Assembly (NCBI RefSeq): GCF_039614715.1
Contig: NZ_CP154857.1
Location: 3,596,001 to 3,660,000, forward strand
DNA from: Microbacterium sp. AZCO
Lineage (GTDB): Bacteria > Actinomycetota > Actinomycetes > Actinomycetales > Microbacteriaceae
Direction of reading: 5' to 3'
Length of the DNA stretch: 64,000 nt
Made by a program: the position numbers and the translations under genes. Shown one piece after another: positions 1,605 through 63,848 of this stretch. Each line of letters begins with the position of its first letter. Position 1 is the stretch's first letter. Below the pieces are notes generated by a model that worked only from the letters and a program-made list of their open reading frames with translations, was not told where the DNA came from and ran no database searches.

Positions 1605-4559
1605 ATGCTCCTGCTCCTCGGCGCGTTCGCGGTGGCGCCGCTCCTGCTGCCGTGGCTCGTCGCGAGGATCGGGGCGCGTGCCTTCCTGGTCGCCGCCGTC
1701 CTGCCCGCGATCGCCTTCGTCCAGGCCGCCCTGGAGACCCGGAACGTGCTCGACGGGGAGATCCCGTTCGAGACCTACGACTGGATCCCGGCGCTCGGCA
1801 TCCAGCTGTCCATGCGGATGGACACCCTCGGCTGGCTCCTCGCGCTCATCGTGACCGGCGTCGGCGCGCTCGTCATGCTCTACTGCCGCTGGTACTTCCG
1901 AGACAAGGCGGACGCCAAGGGCGCCGAGGGTCTCGGTCAGTTCTCCGCCGTGCTCCTCGCCTTCGCGGGCGCGATGTACGGGCTGGTCCTGACCGACGAC
2001 ATCGTCGTGCTCGTGATGTTCTGGGAGGTCACGAGCGTCCTCTCGTACCTGCTCATCGGGTACTACCACCGCCGCGGCGCGAGCCGACGGGCGGCACTGC
2101 AGGCGCTGCTCGTCACGACGCTGGGCGGCCTCGTCATGCTCATCGGCGTCGTGCTGATCGTCGTCGAGGCCGGCACGTCGAGCCTGTCGACGATCCTCGC
2201 GGAAGCCCCCACAGGACCCGTCGTCGACGCGGCGCTCGTGCTGCTGCTCGTCGGAGCCCTGAGCAAGTCGGCGATCTTCCCGTTCCACTTCTGGCTGCCG
2301 GGCGCCATGGCCGCGCCGACCCCCGTGAGCGCCTACCTGCACGCCGCCGCGATGGTGAAGGCGGGCATCTACCTCATCGCCCGCCTCGCCCCGGTCTTCG
2401 CGATCGCGCCGCCCTGGCGGCCCCTCGTCGTGGCCCTCGGCGTCTTCACGATGCTGCTCGGCGGCTGGCAGGCGCTGCGCGAGACCGACCTGAAGCGCAT
2501 CCTCGCCTTCGGCACGGTCAGTCAGCTCGGCCTGCTGACCGTCGTGCTCGGCTACGGGACGAGGGATGCCGCTCTCGCCGGTCTCGCGCTGCTGCTCGGT
2601 CACGCCCTGTTCAAGTCGAGCCTGTTCCTGGTCGTGGGCGTCATCGACCGGCAGCTCTCGACGCGCGACATCCGCGAGCTCAGCGGCCTGGCCCGGCAGG
2701 CGCCCGTCATGGCGACGTTCGCGACGATCGCCGTCGCGTCGATGATCGGCATCATCCCGACGATCGGGTTCGTCGCGAAGGAGGGTGCGCTCACTGCGCT
2801 CCTCGAGGAGGCGCTCGGCGGAGCGCCGTGGGGCATCGTCGCCTTCGTGGGCGTCGTGCTCGGCTCGGTGCTGACGGCGGCGTACGGCATCCGGTTCCTG
2901 TGGGGCGCGTTCTGGACCAAGAAGGACTCCACGGGTGAGTCCATGCCCGCGACGGAATGGCCCGATCCGCCGCTCGGCTTCCTCGCCGCCCCCGTCGTGC
3001 TGTCGGGGCTCACCGTCGTCGCGGGGGTGGCGGCGCCGCTGGTCGATCTCGTCTTCACGCCGTACGCCGACACCGCGCCGGAGTCGACGCCGGGTGTTCC
3101 GCCGCCCGCCTATCCGTACCACCTGGCCCTCTGGCACGGCCTCGATCCCGCGCTGTGGATCTCGCTCGGGACGATACTCGTGGGCGCCGTCGTGTTCGCC
3201 CTGACGCGGCACACGGCACCGGCGCGCGTCATCCGGTTCACGGCCGGCGACATCTACAACGCGAGCCTGCGCGGCATCGCCCGCCTCTCGGTCGTGACGA
3301 CGAGTCTCACGCAGCGCGGCTCGCTGCCCGTTTACGTCGGCACGATCTTCATCGTCTTCGTCGCGGCGGAGGGCACGGTGCTGCTCGCGGGCAGCGACTG
3401 GCGCGTCGCGTACGACGCCTACCAGACGCCGGCTCAGCTGCTCGTCGCGCCCGTCATGATCGTCGCCGGCATCATCGCGACCCGGGCGCGCAAGCGCTAC
3501 ACGGGCGTCGTGCTCGTGTCCGTCACAGGCCTCGGGATGGTCGTGCTCTTCGCCACGAGTGGCGCTCCCGACCTCGCGCTCACGCAGATCCTCGTCGAGA
3601 CGGTGACGCTCGTCGCCTTCGCGCTCGTTCTGCGGCGCATCCCGTCTCGCCTCGGCGAGCACAACGCCTCCGTCGCGCCGGTGGCCCGTGCCGTGATCGC
3701 CGTCGCCGTCGGCCTCACGATGGCCGTCGTCGCCCTCGTCGCGACCGGTGCGCGGGTCGCGACGCCCATCTCGGCCGAGTGGGCCGATCTCGCCTACACG
3801 CTCGGCCACGGCAAGAACGTCGTCAACGTCGCGCTCGTCGATCTGCGCGGGTGGGACACGATGGGCGAGCTCTCGGTGCTGATCGTCGCGGCGACCGGGG
3901 TGGCATCCCTCGTCTTCGTCACGCACCGAGCCGACACGCTCTCGTCGCTCACGGAGCCGCTTCCCCGCGTCTCATCGCGCACGCGCCGGCCGCTGGTCGA
4001 GACGGAGGACGGCGGCGTCACCCCCCAGACGGCCGACCTCAGCCATCGTCCTCGGGCCTGGCTCGTGGGCGGGCAGCGGGTGAAGCCAGAGAACCGCTCG
4101 ATCATCCTCGAGGTGATCGTGCGGATCCTCTTCCACACGATCATCATCGTCTCCCTCTACGTGCTCCTCGCCGGGCACAACCTCCCCGGCGGCGGCTTCG
4201 CGGGCGGGCTCATCGCGGGCATGGCCCTCGTCATGCGGTACGTCGCGGGCGGGCGCTACGAGCTGGGTGCCGCGGCGCCGACCGATGCGGGTCGGCTGCT
4301 GGGCGTCGGCATGGCGATCGCCGTCTCGTGCGCCATCGTGCCGCTCGTCTTCAACGCGCCGCCGCTCAAGAGCGCCTACCTCGAGGCGCACCTCGACTGG
4401 ATCGGCGACATCGAGTTCGTCACCCCGACCCTCTTCGACATCGGCGTCTACCTCGTGGTCATCGGGCTCGTGCTCGACGTGCTGCGCAGCCTCGGCGCGG
4501 AGGTCGACCGTCAGGCGATCGAGCTGCGCGAAGCGCGGACGGGGGCCGGCTCGCGATGA
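1605..4559 (+). CDS. mrpA: Mrp Na+/H+ antiporter subunit A with fused MrpB domain
   Basis: 984 residues, polytopic membrane protein. The first about 500 residues are the NuoL-like proton-conducting core: the FWEVTS glutamate near residue 141 and the LSKSAIFPFHFWLP lysine helix near residue 220 are the conserved proton-path residues. The C-terminal about 160 residues (from about 825) match MrpB (LLAGHNLPGGGFAGGLIAG), so subunits A and B are fused and no separate mrpB follows. Mrp complexes exchange cytoplasmic Na+ for external H+ and support alkali and salt tolerance. The ATG at 1605 has a GAGGAGG site. The gene overlaps mrpC by 4 nt (ATGA), consistent with translational coupling of the whole operon. 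Confidence 0.95.
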   Translation: MLLLLGAFAVAPLLLPWLVARIGARAFLVAAVLPAIAFVQAALETRNVLDGEIPFETYDWIPALGIQLSMRMDTLGWLLALIVTGVGALVMLYCRWYFRDKADAKGAEGLGQFSAVLLAFAGAMYGLVLTDDIVVLVMFWEVTSVLSYLLIGYYHRRGASRRAALQALLVTTLGGLVMLIGVVLIVVEAGTSSLSTILAEAPTGPVVDAALVLLLVGALSKSAIFPFHFWLPGAMAAPTPVSAYLHAAAMVKAGIYLIARLAPVFAIAPPWRPLVVALGVFTMLLGGWQALRETDLKRILAFGTVSQLGLLTVVLGYGTRDAALAGLALLLGHALFKSSLFLVVGVIDRQLSTRDIRELSGLARQAPVMATFATIAVASMIGIIPTIGFVAKEGALTALLEEALGGAPWGIVAFVGVVLGSVLTAAYGIRFLWGAFWTKKDSTGESMPATEWPDPPLGFLAAPVVLSGLTVVAGVAAPLVDLVFTPYADTAPESTPGVPPPAYPYHLALWHGLDPALWISLGTILVGAVVFALTRHTAPARVIRFTAGDIYNASLRGIARLSVVTTSLTQRGSLPVYVGTIFIVFVAAEGTVLLAGSDWRVAYDAYQTPAQLLVAPVMIVAGIIATRARKRYTGVVLVSVTGLGMVVLFATSGAPDLALTQILVETVTLVAFALVLRRIPSRLGEHNASVAPVARAVIAVAVGLTMAVVALVATGARVATPISAEWADLAYTLGHGKNVVNVALVDLRGWDTMGELSVLIVAATGVASLVFVTHRADTLSSLTEPLPRVSSRTRRPLVETEDGGVTPQTADLSHRPRAWLVGGQRVKPENRSIILEVIVRILFHTIIIVSLYVLLAGHNLPGGGFAGGLIAGMALVMRYVAGGRYELGAAAPTDAGRLLGVGMAIAVSCAIVPLVFNAPPLKSAYLEAHLDWIGDIEFVTPTLFDIGVYLVVIGLVLDVLRSLGAEVDRQAIELREARTGAGSR

Positions 4560-5089
4560 ACGTGTCCCTCATCCTCATCGTCATCATGGGCGTGCTCTTC
4601 GCGTGCGGCGTCTACGCGATGCTCGAGCGCAGCCTCACGCGTGTGCTGATCGGCTTCCTCCTCCTCGGCAATGCGGCGAACCTCCTGCTCCTCGTCGTCA
4701 TGGGGCAGCCCGGTCTCGCACCGTTCTACGGCGCCGAGGGTGAAACATCCGACCCCCTGCCTCAGGCCCTCACCCTGACGGCGATCGTCATCACGTTCGC
4801 GGTGTCGGCGTTCCTGCTCGCGCTCATCTACCGCTCCTGGCAGCTCGGGCAGGCCGACACCGTGACCGACGACGAAGCCGACATCGCCGTGCGCCGTCGC
4901 GGCGCTGCGACCGAGGAGACGATGGACGACGAGGCCGAGTTCGACACCGACGACGCGACGACGGACTTCGTGGGCGTGGACACCGCCCCGATCACGGTGC
5001 TCGGCAGCCGCGACGTGCCGGGCCTCGTCGACGACGCGCCGGCCGATCGGCCCATTCGCCGTCCCCGCGACGGGGGTGACGACTCGTGA
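4556..5089 (+). CDS. mrpC: Mrp Na+/H+ antiporter subunit C (NuoK-like)
   Basis: 177 residues. Three hydrophobic helices in the first about 100 residues (MNVSLILIVIMGVLFACGVY; GFLLLGNAANLLLLVV; ALTLTAIVITFAVSAFLLAL) match the NuoK/MrpC fold, a small subunit packed between MrpA and MrpD. MrpC is usually about 110-125 residues. This one has a hydrophilic, strongly acidic tail of about 70 residues (TVTDDEADIAV...DDEAEFDTDDATTDF) that probably lies in the cytoplasm and has no assigned role. It starts inside the mrpA stop and overlaps mrpD by 4 nt (GTGA). Confidence 0.93.
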   Translation: MNVSLILIVIMGVLFACGVYAMLERSLTRVLIGFLLLGNAANLLLLVVMGQPGLAPFYGAEGETSDPLPQALTLTAIVITFAVSAFLLALIYRSWQLGQADTVTDDEADIAVRRRGAATEETMDDEAEFDTDDATTDFVGVDTAPITVLGSRDVPGLVDDAPADRPIRRPRDGGDDS

Positions 5090-57827: not shown

Positions 57828-58739
57828 TCAGACGAAGGTCGGCAGGTCGAGCCAGGCGCCGGGAGCGGCATCCACTCCGTCCCGGACGACCGTGCCCTCG
57901 ATGAGGCCGTAGGGGCGATCGGCGGCATAGAACACCTCGTTGGGGTTCTCCAGGCCGAAGGGCGACAGGTCGTAGGCGAAGTGGTGCTTGTTCGGCATCG
58001 CGAACCGCACCTCCGCGATCTCGGGCCGCGCCTCGATCGCGGCGGCGCCCATCGCGAAGAGCGTCTGCTGCAGAGCGAGGGAGTGCACCGACGCGAACGT
58101 CGAGAGCAGCGCGGCGACCACGTCGGCGTAGAGCGCGTTGAAGTCGATGCCGGCCTCGACGGCCTCCGGGAGGAAGCGCCACCGGCCCGTCACCGAGGTC
58201 GCCATGATGCGGTCGTCGGTCTCGGGGAGCGTCGTGTAGCGGTCGCGGGGGAATCCGGCGAAGCCGCTCCCCGTCGACTTGAGCACGACGAGGTCCTTGA
58301 CCCCGCCGGTCACGTGGGTCTCGCCGTCGACGACCTGGACGGCGGCGAGCCGCGTGCCCGCACCCGAGCGTACGAACGAGTGGTCGTGAGGCTGCCCGTC
58401 GACCAGGATGCGGGACCACTCGTACTGCTCGGCCTGCCAGAGGCCGCCCTCGATCCAGTCGAACTCGCGGGTGAAGTGACGCGAGAGAGTCAGCAGGAAC
58501 TCCTCGGGAGAGGGGATGCCGTGCTCCTTCGCGAACGCGAACACCGTGTTCTTCTGCGTGTCGGTGGCCACGATCCTGCTGTTGTCGCCGGTGAGGAACG
58601 ACTCCGCCAGTGCCGCGCCCCGCAGCTGCGACGTGACGCTCAGGTCGACGATCTCGTGGCGGGGCGTGTCGCGCACGATCCGCACGACGCGGTTCTCCGC
58701 CTTGCCGTATTTGTTTGCGCCGAGGCTGACCGCCACCAT
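57828..58739 (-). CDS. pucL: Urate oxidase (factor-independent urate hydroxylase)
   Basis: 303 residues, two T-fold domains in tandem (VSLGANKYGKAENRVVRIVRD; VKDLVVLKSTGSGFAGFPRD). The family signature near residue 170-200 (DRYTTLPETDDRIMATSV) and NKHHFAYDLSPFGLENPNEVF near the end are present. It oxidises urate with O2 to 5-hydroxyisourate, cytoplasmic. Last gene of the uraD-uraH-pucL unit, 2 bp after uraH, with a GGGAG site. Confidence 0.95.
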   Translation of the reverse strand: MVAVSLGANKYGKAENRVVRIVRDTPRHEIVDLSVTSQLRGAALAESFLTGDNSRIVATDTQKNTVFAFAKEHGIPSPEEFLLTLSRHFTREFDWIEGGLWQAEQYEWSRILVDGQPHDHSFVRSGAGTRLAAVQVVDGETHVTGGVKDLVVLKSTGSGFAGFPRDRYTTLPETDDRIMATSVTGRWRFLPEAVEAGIDFNALYADVVAALLSTFASVHSLALQQTLFAMGAAAIEARPEIAEVRFAMPNKHHFAYDLSPFGLENPNEVFYAADRPYGLIEGTVVRDGVDAAPGAWLDLPTFV

Positions 58740-58741
58740 GA

Positions 58742-59107
58742 CTAGCTCCCTCTGTAGGTCGAATACGCGAACGGGCTGAGGAGCAGGGGCACGTGGCAGT
58801 GCCGGATCTCGCCGTCGTCCGCGGGTTCGACGATGAATGTCACGGTGACGTAGGGATAGAAGGTGTCGACCTGCCGGGCCGCGAAGTACTCGCCGGTCAG
58901 GAAGGTGAGGGTGTAGCTGCCGGGCGGGAGGCGTTCCGGGCCGAGGGAGAGGCGGCCGTCCTCGTCGGTGGCGCCGTGGGCGACGACGGCCCCCGTGGTC
59001 TCGGCCAGCACGGTGTCGCCCGAGGCCTGTGCCAGCACGACTCCCACGCCGCTCGCGGGGTCGCCTGTGGCGGCGTCGAGGACGTGCGTCGTCACGTGGC
59101 TCGTCAT
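58742..59107 (-). CDS. uraH: 5-hydroxyisourate hydrolase (transthyretin-like)
   Basis: 121 residues. The N-terminal HVLDAATGDPA and the C-terminal signature YRGS (here YSTYRGS) are diagnostic of HIU hydrolase rather than transthyretin. It converts 5-hydroxyisourate to OHCU, the second step of urate breakdown. ATG overlaps the uraD stop (ATGA). Confidence 0.95.
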   Translation of the reverse strand: MTSHVTTHVLDAATGDPASGVGVVLAQASGDTVLAETTGAVVAHGATDEDGRLSLGPERLPPGSYTLTFLTGEYFAARQVDTFYPYVTVTFIVEPADDGEIRHCHVPLLLSPFAYSTYRGS

Positions 59108-59616
59108 GCGGGGGTCCCCTCGTCGGTGACGGTCGATCGCAGCCGAAGGAGGGCGATCTCGCGCAGCTGGCCGACGGCCTCCACGGCCTCCGCGTCGGCG
59201 TCGTTGCGGAGCCTGCGCGTCAGCTCGGCGAGCAGCTCGTCGGGGCTTCGTCCCGCCGCCCGGATCAGGAAGACGCGGCCGAAGCGGCGCTCGTACTCGG
59301 CGTTCCCCTCGACGATCGCCCGGCCGATGTCGGCGCCGGCGTCCGACATCGAGGCCTGTTCGCGCCGGGATGCCGCGGCTTCGGCGCCCGATCCGCCTGC
59401 CCGCTCGCCGATGCGTGGGTGCCGCGACAGGGCCGCGTCGAGGTCGTCGCGGGTCCACGAGCCGGCCGTCGTGGCGGCGACGGCGGCGAGCTCGTCGACG
59501 CTGCCGTACGGACGGCCGGCCACGACGGCATCCCGCCATTCGGGGATGGCCGCCCAGACGCCGACGACCTCGGTCGCCGTCGCGGCGTCGAGGCCGTTGA
59601 ACTCCGCGAGCTGCAT
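59104..59616 (-). CDS. uraD: 2-oxo-4-hydroxy-4-carboxy-5-ureidoimidazoline (OHCU) decarboxylase
   Basis: 170 residues from the ATG at 59616. All-helical; SRHPRIGER contains the catalytic His and the substrate-binding segment, and QASMSDAGADIGRAIVEGNAEYERRFG is conserved. It forms S-allantoin from OHCU. First gene of the leftward operon; its ATG is exactly 6 nt after TACCGT and carries no ribosome site, so translation is leaderless. Residues reading upstream to 59709 are not part of the family. Confidence 0.93.
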   Translation of the reverse strand: MQLAEFNGLDAATATEVVGVWAAIPEWRDAVVAGRPYGSVDELAAVAATTAGSWTRDDLDAALSRHPRIGERAGGSGAEAAASRREQASMSDAGADIGRAIVEGNAEYERRFGRVFLIRAAGRSPDELLAELTRRLRNDADAEAVEAVGQLREIALLRLRSTVTDEGTPA

Positions 59617-59622
59617 GGCGCC

Positions 59623-59628
59623 ACGGTA
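59623..59628 (-). promoter_or_regulatory. -10 hexamer of uraD (leaderless)
   Basis: TACCGT on the minus strand, 6 nt before the uraD ATG; identical to the allB hexamer and spacing. Confidence 0.55.
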
Positions 59629-59638
59629 GCCGCCGGTC

Positions 59639-59654
59639 GTTTCCCGTGGGTTAC
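59639..59654 (-). promoter_or_regulatory. GlnR-like box upstream of uraD
   Basis: On the minus strand GTAAC-CCACGG-GAAAC: two 5-bp half-sites 6 bp apart, matching the actinobacterial GlnR form gTnAC-n6-GaAAc. It spans -38 to -23 relative to the uraD ATG. Confidence 0.55.
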
Positions 59655-59781
59655 GGCGGCGTCGCCGTCCCGACGGGCGGAGGAGATCCGAACGGCGGAG
59701 GGGCCGCACGCGCCATCCCCCATCGCCTCACCGAATCACCTCCCCTCCTCCGGACGATGGGAGGAACCCGCGCGCGCAGGG

Positions 59782-59797
59782 GAAACACCCGGGAAAC
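59782..59797 (+). promoter_or_regulatory. GlnR-like box upstream of allB
   Basis: GAAAC-ACCCGG-GAAAC, two half-sites 6 bp apart, spanning -38 to -23 relative to the allB ATG, the same distance as the site before uraD. Confidence 0.5.
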
Positions 59798-59807
59798 GCG
59801 GCTCCGT

Positions 59808-59813
59808 TACCGT
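59808..59813 (+). promoter_or_regulatory. -10 hexamer of allB (leaderless)
   Basis: TACCGT, 6 nt before the ATG at 59820. Confidence 0.55.
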
Positions 59814-59819
59814 GTGCGC

Positions 59820-61169
59820 ATGAGCGGACCCACGACCTTCGCCGCCCGCCGCGCCTTCGTCGACGGCGCGTGGTCATCCGTGACGGTGCGCGTCGAGGGC
59901 GGGGTCATCGCGGCCATCGAACCGTACGACGGCGCAGCCGACCGGGCACTGCCGGACGACGCGGTGCTCCTTCCCGGGCTCGTCGACTCGCACGTGCACC
60001 TCGACGAGCCGGGCCGCACGGAGTGGGAGGGCTTCGCGACCGGCACGGCGGCCGCGGCCGCGGGCGGTGTCACGACCGTGCTCGACATGCCGCTCAACTC
60101 GGTGCCCGTCACGACGAGCGTCGATGCCCTCCAGGCGAAGCGGGCGGCCGCCGCCGGCAAGCTCGCCGTCGACGTCGGGTACTGGGGCGGTTCCGTGCCC
60201 GAGAACCTCGGCACGCTGCGGGCGCTCGCCGAGGCGGGCGTCGTGGGCTTCAAATGCTTCCTCGCTCCGTCGGGCATCGCGGAGTTCGGACAGCTCGACG
60301 CGTCGCAGCTCGAGGCGGCGCTCGCCGAGATCGCCGCGTTCGACGGCGTCCTGATCGTGCACGCGGAGGACCCGGACCACCTCCACGGCGAGGGCGCCCT
60401 GGGTCGCCGCTACGCCGACTTCGTGGCCTCCCGGCCTCCCGAAAGCGAGGAGGCGGCGATCCGCGGCGTGATCGAGGCGTCCCGTCGCACCGGCGCGCGA
60501 GCGCACATCGTGCACGTCTCGGACGGGACGGCGCTGGAGAGCGTGCGCGCCGCGAAGGCCGACGGAGTCCGCCTCACCGTCGAGACCTGCCCGCACTATC
60601 TGACGCTGCGGGCCGAGGACATCCCCGACGGCGCCGCCCAGTTCAAGTGCTGCCCGCCGATCCGGGATGCCGCGAACCAGGAGCTCCTCTGGGCGGGCGT
60701 GCTCGACGGCACGATCGACGCGATCGTGAGCGACCACTCCCCGTCGACGCGCGAGCTCAAACAGCGCGGCGGCGGTGACTTCGGCCTCGCCTGGGGCGGA
60801 ATCGCGGGACTCCAGACGGGACTGCCGGCGGTGTGGACCGAGGCGCGGCGGCGCGGCATCCCTCTCGAGGCGATCCTGCCCCTCTTCACGACCGGCCCCG
60901 CCCGCATCGCGGGGCTCGGCACGCGCGGCACGATCGCTGAGGGGGAGCCCGCGCACCTCGTCGTGTTCCGCCCCGACGACACGTTCCGCGTGCGGGCCCA
61001 CGGCCTCGAGTACCGCAACAAGGTCTCGCCGTGGGACGGCGCGACGCTCCACGGGGTCGTGAGCGAGACGTACGTGCACGGCGTGCTCGGCTACCGAGGA
61101 GAGGTCCTCGCGCGCGCCGGTCGCGAGGTGCTCGCCGCCCGCATCCTCGAGGCGGAGGCGGCGTCATGA
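59820..61169 (+). CDS. allB: Allantoinase
   Basis: 449 residues, amidohydrolase superfamily. Metal ligands: SHVHLDEPGRTEWEGF (His pair), GFKCFLAPSG (the carboxylated Lys), IVHAEDP and IVSDHSPSTRE (Asp). It opens the allantoin ring to allantoate. The ATG at 59820 is used because the family begins here and the -10 leaves only 6 nt; upstream in-frame residues to 59646 are low-complexity. First of at least four overlapping genes (ATGA with the next). Confidence 0.94.
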   Translation: MSGPTTFAARRAFVDGAWSSVTVRVEGGVIAAIEPYDGAADRALPDDAVLLPGLVDSHVHLDEPGRTEWEGFATGTAAAAAGGVTTVLDMPLNSVPVTTSVDALQAKRAAAAGKLAVDVGYWGGSVPENLGTLRALAEAGVVGFKCFLAPSGIAEFGQLDASQLEAALAEIAAFDGVLIVHAEDPDHLHGEGALGRRYADFVASRPPESEEAAIRGVIEASRRTGARAHIVHVSDGTALESVRAAKADGVRLTVETCPHYLTLRAEDIPDGAAQFKCCPPIRDAANQELLWAGVLDGTIDAIVSDHSPSTRELKQRGGGDFGLAWGGIAGLQTGLPAVWTEARRRGIPLEAILPLFTTGPARIAGLGTRGTIAEGEPAHLVVFRPDDTFRVRAHGLEYRNKVSPWDGATLHGVVSETYVHGVLGYRGEVLARAGREVLAARILEAEAAS

Positions 61170-62257
61170 CCGTCGGCATCCTGCAGCCCGGAACCGGAGA
61201 GCTCCCGGGCGATCACTATCTGCCCTCCCGCCCCGACACCGTGCTCTGGGGGCGACTGCCGTGCGCGCGCGACACCGCAGTCCTGACGATCTCGCCCGGG
61301 GAGACCGTGACGATCGACACCGTGAGCCACGAGGGGATCCTCGAGGACCAGGGGAAGGATCCCGTCGCATACTTCGGGTCGCACGGCGTGGGAGAGGCGT
61401 CGGTGCTTCAGGATGCCGTCGCGATCGCCGCCGAGCTTACCCGTGACCCCGCGACGGACGGACCGCACGTCGTCACGGGCCCGATCTTCATCGACGGTGC
61501 CGAGCCCGGCGACCTGCTGCAGATCACCGTCGAGCGGCTCGTGCCTCGCGTGCCGTATGGCGTGATCTCGAACCGCCACGGCAAGGGCGCGCTCGTGGGC
61601 GTGCTCCCGCGCAGCGAGGGAAGCGTGAGCGTCTTCACCCCGGTCGAGGAACGCTCCTCGGGCCTCGTCGGCAGACTGCCTGTCAGGCACGGCGGAGAGC
61701 GCGTCGTGGAGTTCCCGCTCGCACCGTTCCTCGGCACGATGGGCGTCGCCGTGGCGTCGGACGAGCGGCCCCATTCGGTGCCGCCCGGGTCGCACGGCGG
61801 CAACATCGACATCAACCTCCTCGTCGAGGGCACGGTCCTCTATCTGCCCGTCCAGGTGCCCGGGGCCCTCGCGTACGTCGGCGACCCGCACTTCGCCCAG
61901 GGCGACGGCGAGGTGGCGCTGACGGCGCTCGAGGCTTCCCTCCGGGCGACGCTGCGATTCGACGTCGTCCCTCGCGAGGAGGCGCTTCGCGAGTTCGGCG
62001 ACGTCGCCGGTCCGCTCGTCCGCACCCCCGAGTACCTGGTGCCGACGGGACTGGATCCGGATCTCGACGAGGCGATGCGCACGTGCGTGAGGGCGGCGAT
62101 CGACCTCATCTCGGCGAGATGGGGCATGGACGAGCACCTCGCCTACGCGTACCTCAGCGCGGCGACCGACTTCGACGTCTCCCAGGTCGTCGACATCGTG
62201 TGCGGCATCCACGCCCGCATCCGCGAAGCGGACTTCGAGGGGGTGCCGCGTGGCTGA
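61166..62257 (+). CDS. Acetamidase/formamidase family protein
   Basis: 363 residues. SHEGILEDQGKDPVAYFGSHGVG, TGPIFIDGAEPGDLLQITVERL and SHGGNIDINLLVEGTVLYLPV match the FmdA/AmdA family, which releases ammonia from short amides. The family has no known role in standard allantoin breakdown, but its place between allB and an amidase suggests it frees nitrogen from a ureide-derived amide. Overlaps the genes on both sides. Confidence 0.9.
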   Translation: MTVGILQPGTGELPGDHYLPSRPDTVLWGRLPCARDTAVLTISPGETVTIDTVSHEGILEDQGKDPVAYFGSHGVGEASVLQDAVAIAAELTRDPATDGPHVVTGPIFIDGAEPGDLLQITVERLVPRVPYGVISNRHGKGALVGVLPRSEGSVSVFTPVEERSSGLVGRLPVRHGGERVVEFPLAPFLGTMGVAVASDERPHSVPPGSHGGNIDINLLVEGTVLYLPVQVPGALAYVGDPHFAQGDGEVALTALEASLRATLRFDVVPREEALREFGDVAGPLVRTPEYLVPTGLDPDLDEAMRTCVRAAIDLISARWGMDEHLAYAYLSAATDFDVSQVVDIVCGIHARIREADFEGVPRG

Positions 62258-63848
62258 GATGCCGGACGACCTCTTCACGGCGTTCGAGGACTACGAACGC
62301 GCGATCCTCTCGAACGACCTCGACGCGCTCGACGCGGCCTTCGCCCCCGGACCGGACACTCTCCGGGGCGACGGCGCCGGCCTACTGGTCGGTCACGAGG
62401 CGATCAGCGCCTTCCGCGGGGTGCGCGGGGGCGTTCCGCCGCGCACCATCGAGCGGGTCGAGTACCGTCCCCTGGGAGTGGATGCTGCGCTCCTCGTGTC
62501 GGTCTCGCACTACCTGCAGGGCGGCACGGGCCTGCAGACCCAGCTGTGGGAGCGCATCGACGGGCGCTGGCTCATCACCGCCGCCCACGTGACCGCCCGG
62601 GCGCAGGCGCTCGACCGGTCGGTCTGGCGGACCGTGGGGGATCCGCTGTTCCAAGGGGCCTGGGACGGTCCGCTCGCGGGTCTCACGGTCGCCGTGAAGG
62701 ACCTCTTCGCGGTCAAGGGCTACCGGATCGGGGCGGGCAACCCCGCCTATCTCGACGAGGCGAAGGCCGAGACCCGCACGGCGCCCGCGGTCTCCGACCT
62801 GCTCCGGGGAGGGGCATCCCTCCGCGGCATCGCACGCACCGACGAGTTCGCGTTCAGCATCGCCGGCGACAACCCGCACTACGGCACGCCGCCGAACGGC
62901 GCCCTGCCCGGCGCACTCCCGGGCGGCTCGTCGAGCGGACCCGCCTCGGCCGTGGCCACCGGTCAGGCCGAGATCGGCCTCGCCAGCGACACGGCGGGCT
63001 CCATTCGCGTGCCCGCCTCGTACCAGGGGCTGTGGGGGCTGCGCACGACCCACGGCCTCGTCCCGCGGCAGGGGATGCTTCCCCTCGCACAGTCGTTCGA
63101 CACGGTCGGCTGGCTCACCCGCGACGGCGCGACGCTGCAGCGCGTCGCGGACTGGTGCCTCAGCTACGACGGCTCGTCGTCGACCGAGAGCGTGTACGGC
63201 GCGTCGGGGTCGGAGCTGCCCTGGCGCCTGCTCATCCCCGAGGAGGCGCTGGAAGCGGTCGAGCCGGAGACCCGGTCGGCCTTCGACGCGCTCCTCATCC
63301 GCCTCGCCGCGTCGGACGATCCACCCGCGCTCGCCCGGGTCTCGCTCGGTCCGCTCGACGACTACTACGAGCCGTTCCGCACCGTGCAGGGCGCGGAGGC
63401 GTGGCGGAACAACGGCGACTGGCTCGAGACGCATCCCGACGCCACCGGCTCGGCGGTCCGTGAGCGCTTCCGGGTCGCCTCCGAGGTGACGGCCGGGGCC
63501 GAGGCATCCGCCCGCTCGGCCCTCGAGCCGCTCCGCGAGCACCTGCGCGGCCTCGTCGCGAACGCCGTGCTCGTGTTCCCGACCGTGCCGGGGCCGGCGC
63601 CCATGCGCACCCATGCGGGCGACCGGATCGACGCGGTCCGTCAGGCGACGCTGCGGCTGACGACCCCCGCCGCCGTCGGCGGTCTCCCCGCGCTGTCGGC
63701 ACCGCTGCTGACGGTGCCGTCTCAGCTCGGTCCCGCACCCGTCGGCGTCTCGCTCGTCTCGCGCGGCGGCACCGACATCGCGCTCGTCCGCCTCGCCCGT
63801 CGCCTCGCTCGGCTCGTCGCCGACCCGACCCGCCCGGAGCTGACGTGA
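62250..63848 (+). CDS. AtzH-like domain fused to an amidase-signature enzyme
   Basis: 532 residues, GTG start overlapping the previous gene by 8 bp. Residues 1 to about 125 are an NTF2-like AtzH domain (FEDYERAILSNDLDALDAAFAP, RTIERVEYRPLG). The rest is an amidase with the Ser-cisSer-Lys triad: Lys150 (VAVKDLFAVKG), cis-Ser227 (GGSSSG) and Ser251 (SDTAGSIRVP). In Pseudomonas the cyanuric-acid pathway has separate AtzH and AtzE (1-carboxybiuret hydrolase); here they are one chain. It probably hydrolyses a carboxyurea-type or other ureide intermediate. Followed by the PLP aminotransferase at a GTGA overlap. Confidence 0.88.
   Translation: MAEMPDDLFTAFEDYERAILSNDLDALDAAFAPGPDTLRGDGAGLLVGHEAISAFRGVRGGVPPRTIERVEYRPLGVDAALLVSVSHYLQGGTGLQTQLWERIDGRWLITAAHVTARAQALDRSVWRTVGDPLFQGAWDGPLAGLTVAVKDLFAVKGYRIGAGNPAYLDEAKAETRTAPAVSDLLRGGASLRGIARTDEFAFSIAGDNPHYGTPPNGALPGALPGGSSSGPASAVATGQAEIGLASDTAGSIRVPASYQGLWGLRTTHGLVPRQGMLPLAQSFDTVGWLTRDGATLQRVADWCLSYDGSSSTESVYGASGSELPWRLLIPEEALEAVEPETRSAFDALLIRLAASDDPPALARVSLGPLDDYYEPFRTVQGAEAWRNNGDWLETHPDATGSAVRERFRVASEVTAGAEASARSALEPLREHLRGLVANAVLVFPTVPGPAPMRTHAGDRIDAVRQATLRLTTPAAVGGLPALSAPLLTVPSQLGPAPVGVSLVSRGGTDIALVRLARRLARLVADPTRPELT

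Follow-up and report, generated by a model that had tools for sequence, protein, structure and literature searches.

What controls the divergent urate and allantoin genes of Microbacterium sp. AZCO, and does a single nitrogen regulator act on both? The window (the whole stretch of DNA that was analyzed, 64,000 nucleotides) covers bases 3596001-3660000 of a single contig of 4.23 Mb, and carries uraD, uraH and the urate oxidase gene on its minus strand, back to back with allB, an acetamidase/formamidase-like gene and a gene for an HpxZ-amidase fusion on its plus strand. The start codons of uraD and allB are separated by 203 bp, and both sets of candidate regulatory sites are located within this gap. 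These back-to-back sites look like boxes of the nitrogen regulator GlnR, and the cell very probably uses purines as a source of nitrogen in times of shortage. The genes uraD-uraH-uricase on one side, and allB with the downstream amidase genes on the other, likely represent two operons, whose features are listed below together with those of the gap (positions in the window unless a sequence is named).

57828..58739, minus strand: urate oxidase (factor-independent urate hydroxylase), TIGR03383 above its cut-off
58742..59107, minus strand: uraH, hydroxyisourate hydrolase, TIGR02962 above its cut-off; overlaps the end of uraD
59104..59616, minus strand: uraD, OHCU decarboxylase, NCBIfam UraD_2 above its cut-off; heads the likely uraD-uraH-uricase operon
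59614-59616, minus strand: ATG of uraD
59623..59628, minus strand: putative -10 element of uraD, TACCGT, 6 nt before the ATG; relatives have a TAnnnT with this spacing
59639..59643, minus strand: predicted GlnR b half-site of uraD, GAAAC, 10 nt from the -10 element
59650..59654, minus strand: predicted GlnR a half-site of uraD, GTAAC, on the -35 region
59661..59665, minus strand: possible third half-site of uraD, GCGAC, in the 11-bp phase, weak
59782..59786, plus strand: predicted GlnR half-site of allB in the a position, GAAAC
59793..59797, plus strand: predicted GlnR b half-site of allB, GAAAC
59808..59813, plus strand: putative -10 element of allB, TACCGT, 6 nt before the ATG; relatives have a TAnnnT in this position
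59820-59822, plus strand: ATG of allB
59820..61169, plus strand: allB, allantoinase, TIGR03178 above its cut-off; heads the likely operon of the plus strand
61166..62257, plus strand: acetamidase/formamidase-like gene, second in the allB operon; NCBIfam FmdA matches weakly (66.8 bits versus a cut-off of 500)
62250..63848, plus strand: third gene, HpxZ/AtzH-like domain fused to an amidase, both NCBIfam matches below cut-off
L050, about 845-2065: aminotransferase, mostly beyond the window, below its NCBIfam cut-off
L050, about 2062-3402: allantoate amidohydrolase, mostly beyond the window, above its NCBIfam cut-off

The protein encoded at 62250-63848 scores 367 bits as an amidase (cut-off 391) and 49.9 bits as HpxZ (cut-off 135); by these weak matches, the allantoin operon would join an HpxZ/AtzH-like domain and an amidase in a single protein.

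Two boxes in the gap between uraD and allB

Read directly from the sequence, the uraD side is GTAAC-n6-GAAAC-n10-TACCGT-n6-ATG, and the allB side is GAAAC-n6-GAAAC-n10-TACCGT-n6-ATG. The first-pass annotation had pointed out that an identical TACCGT hexamer stands 6 nt upstream of both divergent start codons, and that pairs of half-sites 6 bp apart span -38 to -23 on both sides (taking the A of the ATG as +1); by coordinates, both statements are exact. Absent from it were the gap of 10 nt between half-sites and hexamer, which is the same at uraD and allB, and the candidate third half-site of uraD, GCGAC. Such a symmetry was expected to be unlikely by chance, and none of 20,000 dinucleotide shuffles of the 203 bp gives even one site of the form GNNAC-n6-GNAAC-n10-TANNNT, versus two observed; as this pattern was picked after the site had been seen, it is the other genomes that provide independent tests. 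The sites had been described as mirror images; here they form two distinct boxes, 127 bp apart. Boxes of the form gTnAC-n6-GaAAC or Gn2AC-n6-GnAAC are found in this gap, the base following GnAAC being a G at both b half-sites, where the M. smegmatis motif has an A. The classical Streptomyces two-box form (a1-b1-a2-b2) is not seen there, allB having one box and uraD at most three half-sites.

TAnnnT is a form of the -10 element, to which TACCGT conforms, and a promoter can be regarded as leaderless when this element stands 5-8 nt before the start codon, so close that a ribosome site would not fit in between. With the hexamer ending 6 nt upstream of the ATG in both genes, a leaderless promoter with TACCGT as its -10 element would be the best reading: a start 6 nt after TACCGT falls on the A of this codon, so that the two mRNAs probably lack a leader. 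The box, from -38 to -23, would then take the place of the -35 element, a position that fits activation by recruitment of the polymerase. The activator position attributed to the half-sites is retained in this sense, except that the box sits on the -35 region, and not upstream of it.

We consider it highly probable, given the sequence and its conservation, the presence of GlnR and the geometry shared with glnA and one amtB of this genome (see below), that two separate, divergent and GlnR-dependent leaderless promoters drive uraD and allB, and are activated under nitrogen limitation. Each promoter would consist of one GlnR box, made of two head-to-tail 5-bp half-sites 11 bp apart and lying over the -35 place, followed after 10 nt by a TAnnnT -10 element, with transcription predicted to start on the A of the ATG or on an adjacent base. 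When nitrogen is limiting, GlnR would bind the box and recruit RNA polymerase in place of the -35 contact, thereby switching on uraD-uraH-uricase as well as allB and the downstream amidase genes, and two further boxes located 15-21 kb away may serve an ABC transporter operon and xdhC. The proposal that one nitrogen regulator switches on the whole urate-to-allantoate pathway is supported in that GlnR is the probable regulator, but the regulon is likely wider than this pathway, given the boxes of the transporter operon and xdhC. Such promoters would provide a base-level map of the predicted nitrogen control of purine breakdown in Microbacterium, and a promoter grammar (half-site, n6, half-site, n10, TAnnnT, n6-7, ATG) with which GlnR regulons could be read from raw genomes.

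Conservation of the boxes in relatives

Is the same box present in related genomes? The 85 loci considered (80 named loci and 5 more, some of which repeat the 80) contain 49 sites with the pattern and none with the reversed pattern: 28 before allB and 10 before uraD (38 together), and 11 elsewhere. The geometry is strict, as 49 sites are obtained with 6 nt between the half-sites, one with 8, and none with 3, 4, 5, 7 or 9, and the gap to TANNNT is 10 nt in 44 sites and 11 nt in 5, all other values between 4 and 18 giving none. With at most one mismatch, the box is found upstream of allB in 28/80 loci (L058-L076, L092, L081-L083, L087, L079, L103, L105 and L108), versus 0/80 in coding controls, the 10-position core being perfect in 24 and carrying one mismatch in four. 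The box is conserved in close relatives only: it precedes allB in 22 of the 23 loci titled Microbacterium (the exception has a 54% allB), and is missing in 52 of the 80 loci, including those of Curtobacterium, Agreia, Cellulomonas (65-66% identity), Streptomyces and Pseudonocardia. Of the 20 named allB neighbors with an identity of about 70-75%, the titles give Microbacterium in 18 cases and Microbacteriaceae in 2.

Upstream of uraD, the box is perfect in 8/41 loci and has one mismatch in 3/41; the match in L103 is a contig-edge artefact and, once dropped, leaves 10/40 versus 0/40 in the controls. Nine loci keep a uraD box of the form GCCAC-n6-GTAAC-n10-TAGCnT-n7-ATG, and as more than 3 kb separate uraD from allB in eight of them (in L074, where uraD is cut by the contig end, the gene was identified by its first codons), the uraD and allB boxes appear to be conserved independently. 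The gap between the -10 element and the ATG is 6 nt in 3/20 and 7 nt in 17/20 of the close allB loci, and is longer, with a leader, in L081, L082, L083 and L087. Related genomes are non-independent samples, whose flanking sequences nonetheless differ.

Two other motifs are seen around allB. All 20 close loci (L058-L076, L092) carry TGTTG 11 nt before the a half-site of allB, a motif that is absent from the window, L010, L081-L083 and L087; its interpretation as a second allB operator was discarded, because in L061, L064 and L067 it is, by inspection, a half-site of the divergent uraD array. In Curtobacterium (L080, L085, L086, L088, L091), a GCAAC-n6-GNAAC box with an n11 gap is conserved before another gene, at a distance downstream of allB that ranges from about 40 nt to 2.7 kb.

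GlnR and further boxes within Microbacterium

The genome does encode the regulator that had been suggested for these sites, the GlnR receiver domain being found once (E 1.6e-43). The full protein matches PDB entry 8hih (E 6.7e-77), and the stretch FGGTRTVDVHVRRLRAKLG of its DNA-binding domain is identical in 8hih, 8hig and 8hml, which their depositors name OmpR-family or transcriptional regulators and which we take to be mycobacterial and Streptomyces GlnR; 4o1h, matched by the receiver domain, carries the name GlnR. The GlnR domain is present in 96/98 genus genomes, and in 90/90 of those with a completeness of at least 90% and a contamination of at most 5%. Together with the published motif, the boxes of the genome's own glnA and of one amtB and those of relatives, this encoded GlnR argues for reading the two pairs by the GlnR half-site rule, as was first proposed. 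Two findings that would have spoken against this reading, a genome lacking any GlnR-type regulator and half-sites that vary among close relatives, did not turn up.

Searching the whole genome for GNNAC-n6-GNAAC-n9..11-TANNNT gives 10 matches, versus none for the pattern read backwards. Three of these sites directly precede, at 6-7 nt from the ATG, a recognized gene of nitrogen or carbon assimilation (uraD, allB and ppc, the phosphoenolpyruvate carboxylase gene), and none of the other seven stands before a recognized nitrogen gene; downstream of three of those seven, an acyltransferase, an S8-peptidase-like ORF and a protein without known function were identified by eye. The GlnR-type box of ppc (genome 1921174-1921205, L043) lies 7 nt before the ATG and recurs with the same layout in several genus genomes; such boxes would tie carbon backfilling to nitrogen control. 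Another GlnR-type box, with an n11 gap, precedes a 186-aa ORF and ends 5 nt from its ATG (L046, genome 2635862-2635894).

Longer arrays were looked for with a phased scan (four half-sites in 11-bp phase, and a -10 element, TA or CA then nnnT, at 10 nt) in 18 sequences, some of them overlapping (the window, L050, L138, L051-L057, L039 and L001-L007). Five arrays were obtained, versus none in the same sequences reversed: they belong to uraD, glnA, one amtB, the gene of an ABC-transporter substrate-binding protein, and xdhC, allB falling under the threshold with its two half-sites only. The glnA array is GTAAC-n6-GAAAC-n6-GTCAC-n6-GCAAT-n10-TACGGT, and that of amtB is GTAAC-n6-GAAAC-n6-CCCAA-n6-GTAAC-n10-CAGAAT, with a degenerate a2. 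The box geometry is shared by one of five glutamine-synthetase-type genes and one of two ammonium-transporter genes; the phased scan gave no array for the second ammonium-transporter gene or the four other glutamine-synthetase-type genes, nor in L051 and L054-L057. Between the second ammonium transporter and a glutamine-synthetase-type gene (L051/L056, at L056 964), GTGAC-n6-GCAAC is seen, with no -10 element at 10 nt.

The other two arrays lie 15-21 kb from the uraD/allB gap. The gene of the substrate-binding protein is preceded by GTCAC, GAAAC, a degenerate a2, GAAAC, n10 and TAGCGT (genome 3670900, minus strand, L050), and xdhC by GTAGC-n6-GAAAC-n10-TACCGT-n6-ATG (GAAAC at genome 3676963, minus strand, L138). 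The transporter operon is of the nitrate/taurine ABC type and adjoins xanthine-dehydrogenase-type genes; a xanthine/uracil-type permease is encoded in the same stretch as XdhC and a protein of the xanthine-dehydrogenase type.

Across the genus, GTNAC-n6-GAAAC-n10-TANNNT occurs at 88 sites in 51 of 99 genomes, versus one site when read backwards, and this strict pattern is missing in 48/99. Thirty of these sites were inspected as loci, the downstream gene being named by eye from the first reading frame: 22 precede allB (5), uraD (2), nirB (6), ppc (6), a deaminase-like gene (1) or a spermidine-type permease gene (2). NCBIfam matches were obtained for nirB of L152, uraD of L158, the deaminase of L164, the permease of L167 and the genome's own ppc (L043), of which only uraD exceeds a curated cut-off, ppc and nirB being fragments. 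Of the remaining eight, four were picked in the wrong frame and one is an aldo-keto reductase, and the last three were seen by eye as a sirtuin-like, a peptidase-like and one further ORF; ORFs picked in a wrong frame (L146, L151, L159, L162, L046) were left out of the counts.

Rival regulators and known GlnR systems

Could these sites serve another protein, or none at all? MtrA or another regulator of the OmpR family might be the main binder, with GlnR in a minor or competing role, and would then repress in rich medium rather than activate under nitrogen limitation. MtrA is indeed encoded (L003, NF040689, 384.6 bits versus a cut-off of 300), and competes in Streptomyces with GlnR, whose boxes it is reported to bind in the available part of that literature. 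The genome contains 15 OmpR-type C-domains (PF00486), of which the family-library profile search covered GlnR and four others; for L004, L005 and L006, no model match exceeded its cut-off at the E-value asked. We nevertheless regard this alternative as improbable, as the same box is present at the genome's own glnA, at one amtB and at nirB in the genus, all classical GlnR targets, and a position replacing the -35 element fits activation. It is more improbable still that uraD and allB have ordinary constitutive promoters, whose half-sites are a lineage-specific remnant without function: most loci beyond the close allB group lack the boxes, but where they occur their spacing is kept before both genes while the flanks differ, and also when more than 3 kb separate uraD and allB.

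A local purine-sensing repressor, to which GlnR adds general nitrogen control, has a better though still small chance, and is compatible with GlnR-dependent promoters. Pathway-specific regulators of allantoin use exist elsewhere, and the TGTTG motif is kept in all 20 close loci; against this, the motif is lacking in the window and belongs to the uraD array where the two arrays meet, and the only regulators recognized by eye among the ORFs of 52-64 kb and of L050 are a LacI-type one by an amylase-type gene and a TetR one after the allantoate amidohydrolase. Promoters of the ECF-type sigma factors have the consensus GGAAAC ... CGTT, which by inspection can be drawn on the allB side and not on the uraD side, and this possibility was rejected. 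Several observations count against GlnR as well: 52/80 allB loci and 48/99 genus genomes are without the box, seven of the 10 genome sites precede no recognized nitrogen gene, MtrA could use the same site, allB has one box where the Streptomyces elements, in the text available, classically have two, and GlnR also represses according to the accessible part of PMC3662644.

To what extent does GlnR control as proposed here resemble that of other actinobacteria? PhoB-type regulators are known for class II activation, in which 11-bp direct repeats replace the -35 element about 10 nt before the -10 element; this layout resembles the uraD and allB boxes, from which the half-site and the signal differ. 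The gTnAC/GaAAC half-sites 11 bp apart and the OmpR-type GlnR are as in the GlnR regulon of Streptomyces, Mycobacterium and Amycolatopsis, with which, from the portions of the literature available, targets such as glnA, amtB and nirB and the control of divergent genes are also shared. In contrast, the single box of allB, the fixed 10-nt gap to the -10 element, the leaderless spacing, and the urate and allantoin genes as putative direct targets set the present case apart. In M. smegmatis, the GlnR ChIP motif Gn2AC-n6-GnAACA is given once for each of 53 sites in the accessible text (PMC3662644), so that two boxes are not required there. In M. tuberculosis, the available text of PMC4950008 places GlnR sites at -37 (glnA1) and -30 (glnA2), and its authors saw no pattern by which the position of a site relative to the transcription start would predict activation or repression. 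Classical Streptomyces elements have two boxes, a2-b2 alone with a poor a2 not being bound, in the text available (PMC5826061). At S. coelicolor amtB (a3-b3, a1-b1, a2-b2), a2 lies at the -35 position, may be degenerate and is dispensable, as far as the available part of the same source shows (PMC5826061). The genome's own amtB and ABC transporter boxes likewise have a degenerate a2, while uraD and allB, unlike S. coelicolor amtB, are without a clear full upstream box.

As for purines, growth of M. smegmatis on uric acid is GlnR-dependent in the accessible text of PMC4222082, and an excerpt of another study gives a loss of survival in the absence of glnR of 96.6% on uric acid and 99.0% on allantoin, the latter, a CFU result, being at odds with the phenotype array of the same paper (PMC6277429). 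The M. smegmatis ChIP targets named in the available text include a putative allantoicase and purine-type permeases, and those predicted here are uraD-uraH-uricase, allB, xdhC and the ABC transporter. The terms uric, allantoin, xanthine and purine are all absent from the S. venezuelae GlnR regulon paper. GlnR and its box are already known, as are divergent control and the GlnR-dependent use of urate; what appears new, as far as the listed literature matches show, is the predicted map of directly controlled promoters of the urate, allantoin and xanthine genes of Microbacteriaceae, together with the rule of strict spacing. Among the matches listed (titles and starts of abstracts in open-licence PubMed Central), there was no study of GlnR in Microbacterium, and neither uraD nor allB was named as a GlnR target.

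A further possibility, which we put forward tentatively and find on balance doubtful, is that in Microbacteriaceae a single GlnR box of two half-sites, 10 nt from the -10 element, makes a complete leaderless activator promoter, and that divergent purine genes have fused their boxes down to shared half-sites. If true, one GlnR assembly would switch both directions, unlike the four-protomer assembly described for GlnR. In other genomes, the mirror image is a literal one: by inspection, the uraD and allB half-sites of M. lacus (L061, 4921-4955) together form a 35-bp inverted repeat (32/35 positions), and the two arrays overlap in L064 and L067 near 4884-4945. Divergent deaminase-like and TIGR00730/LOG-type genes (L173 3668-3726, L174 3665-3723) have one central half-site in common, in the sequence GTTTC-n6-GTSAC-n6-GAAAC, with leaderless-type spacing on both sides.
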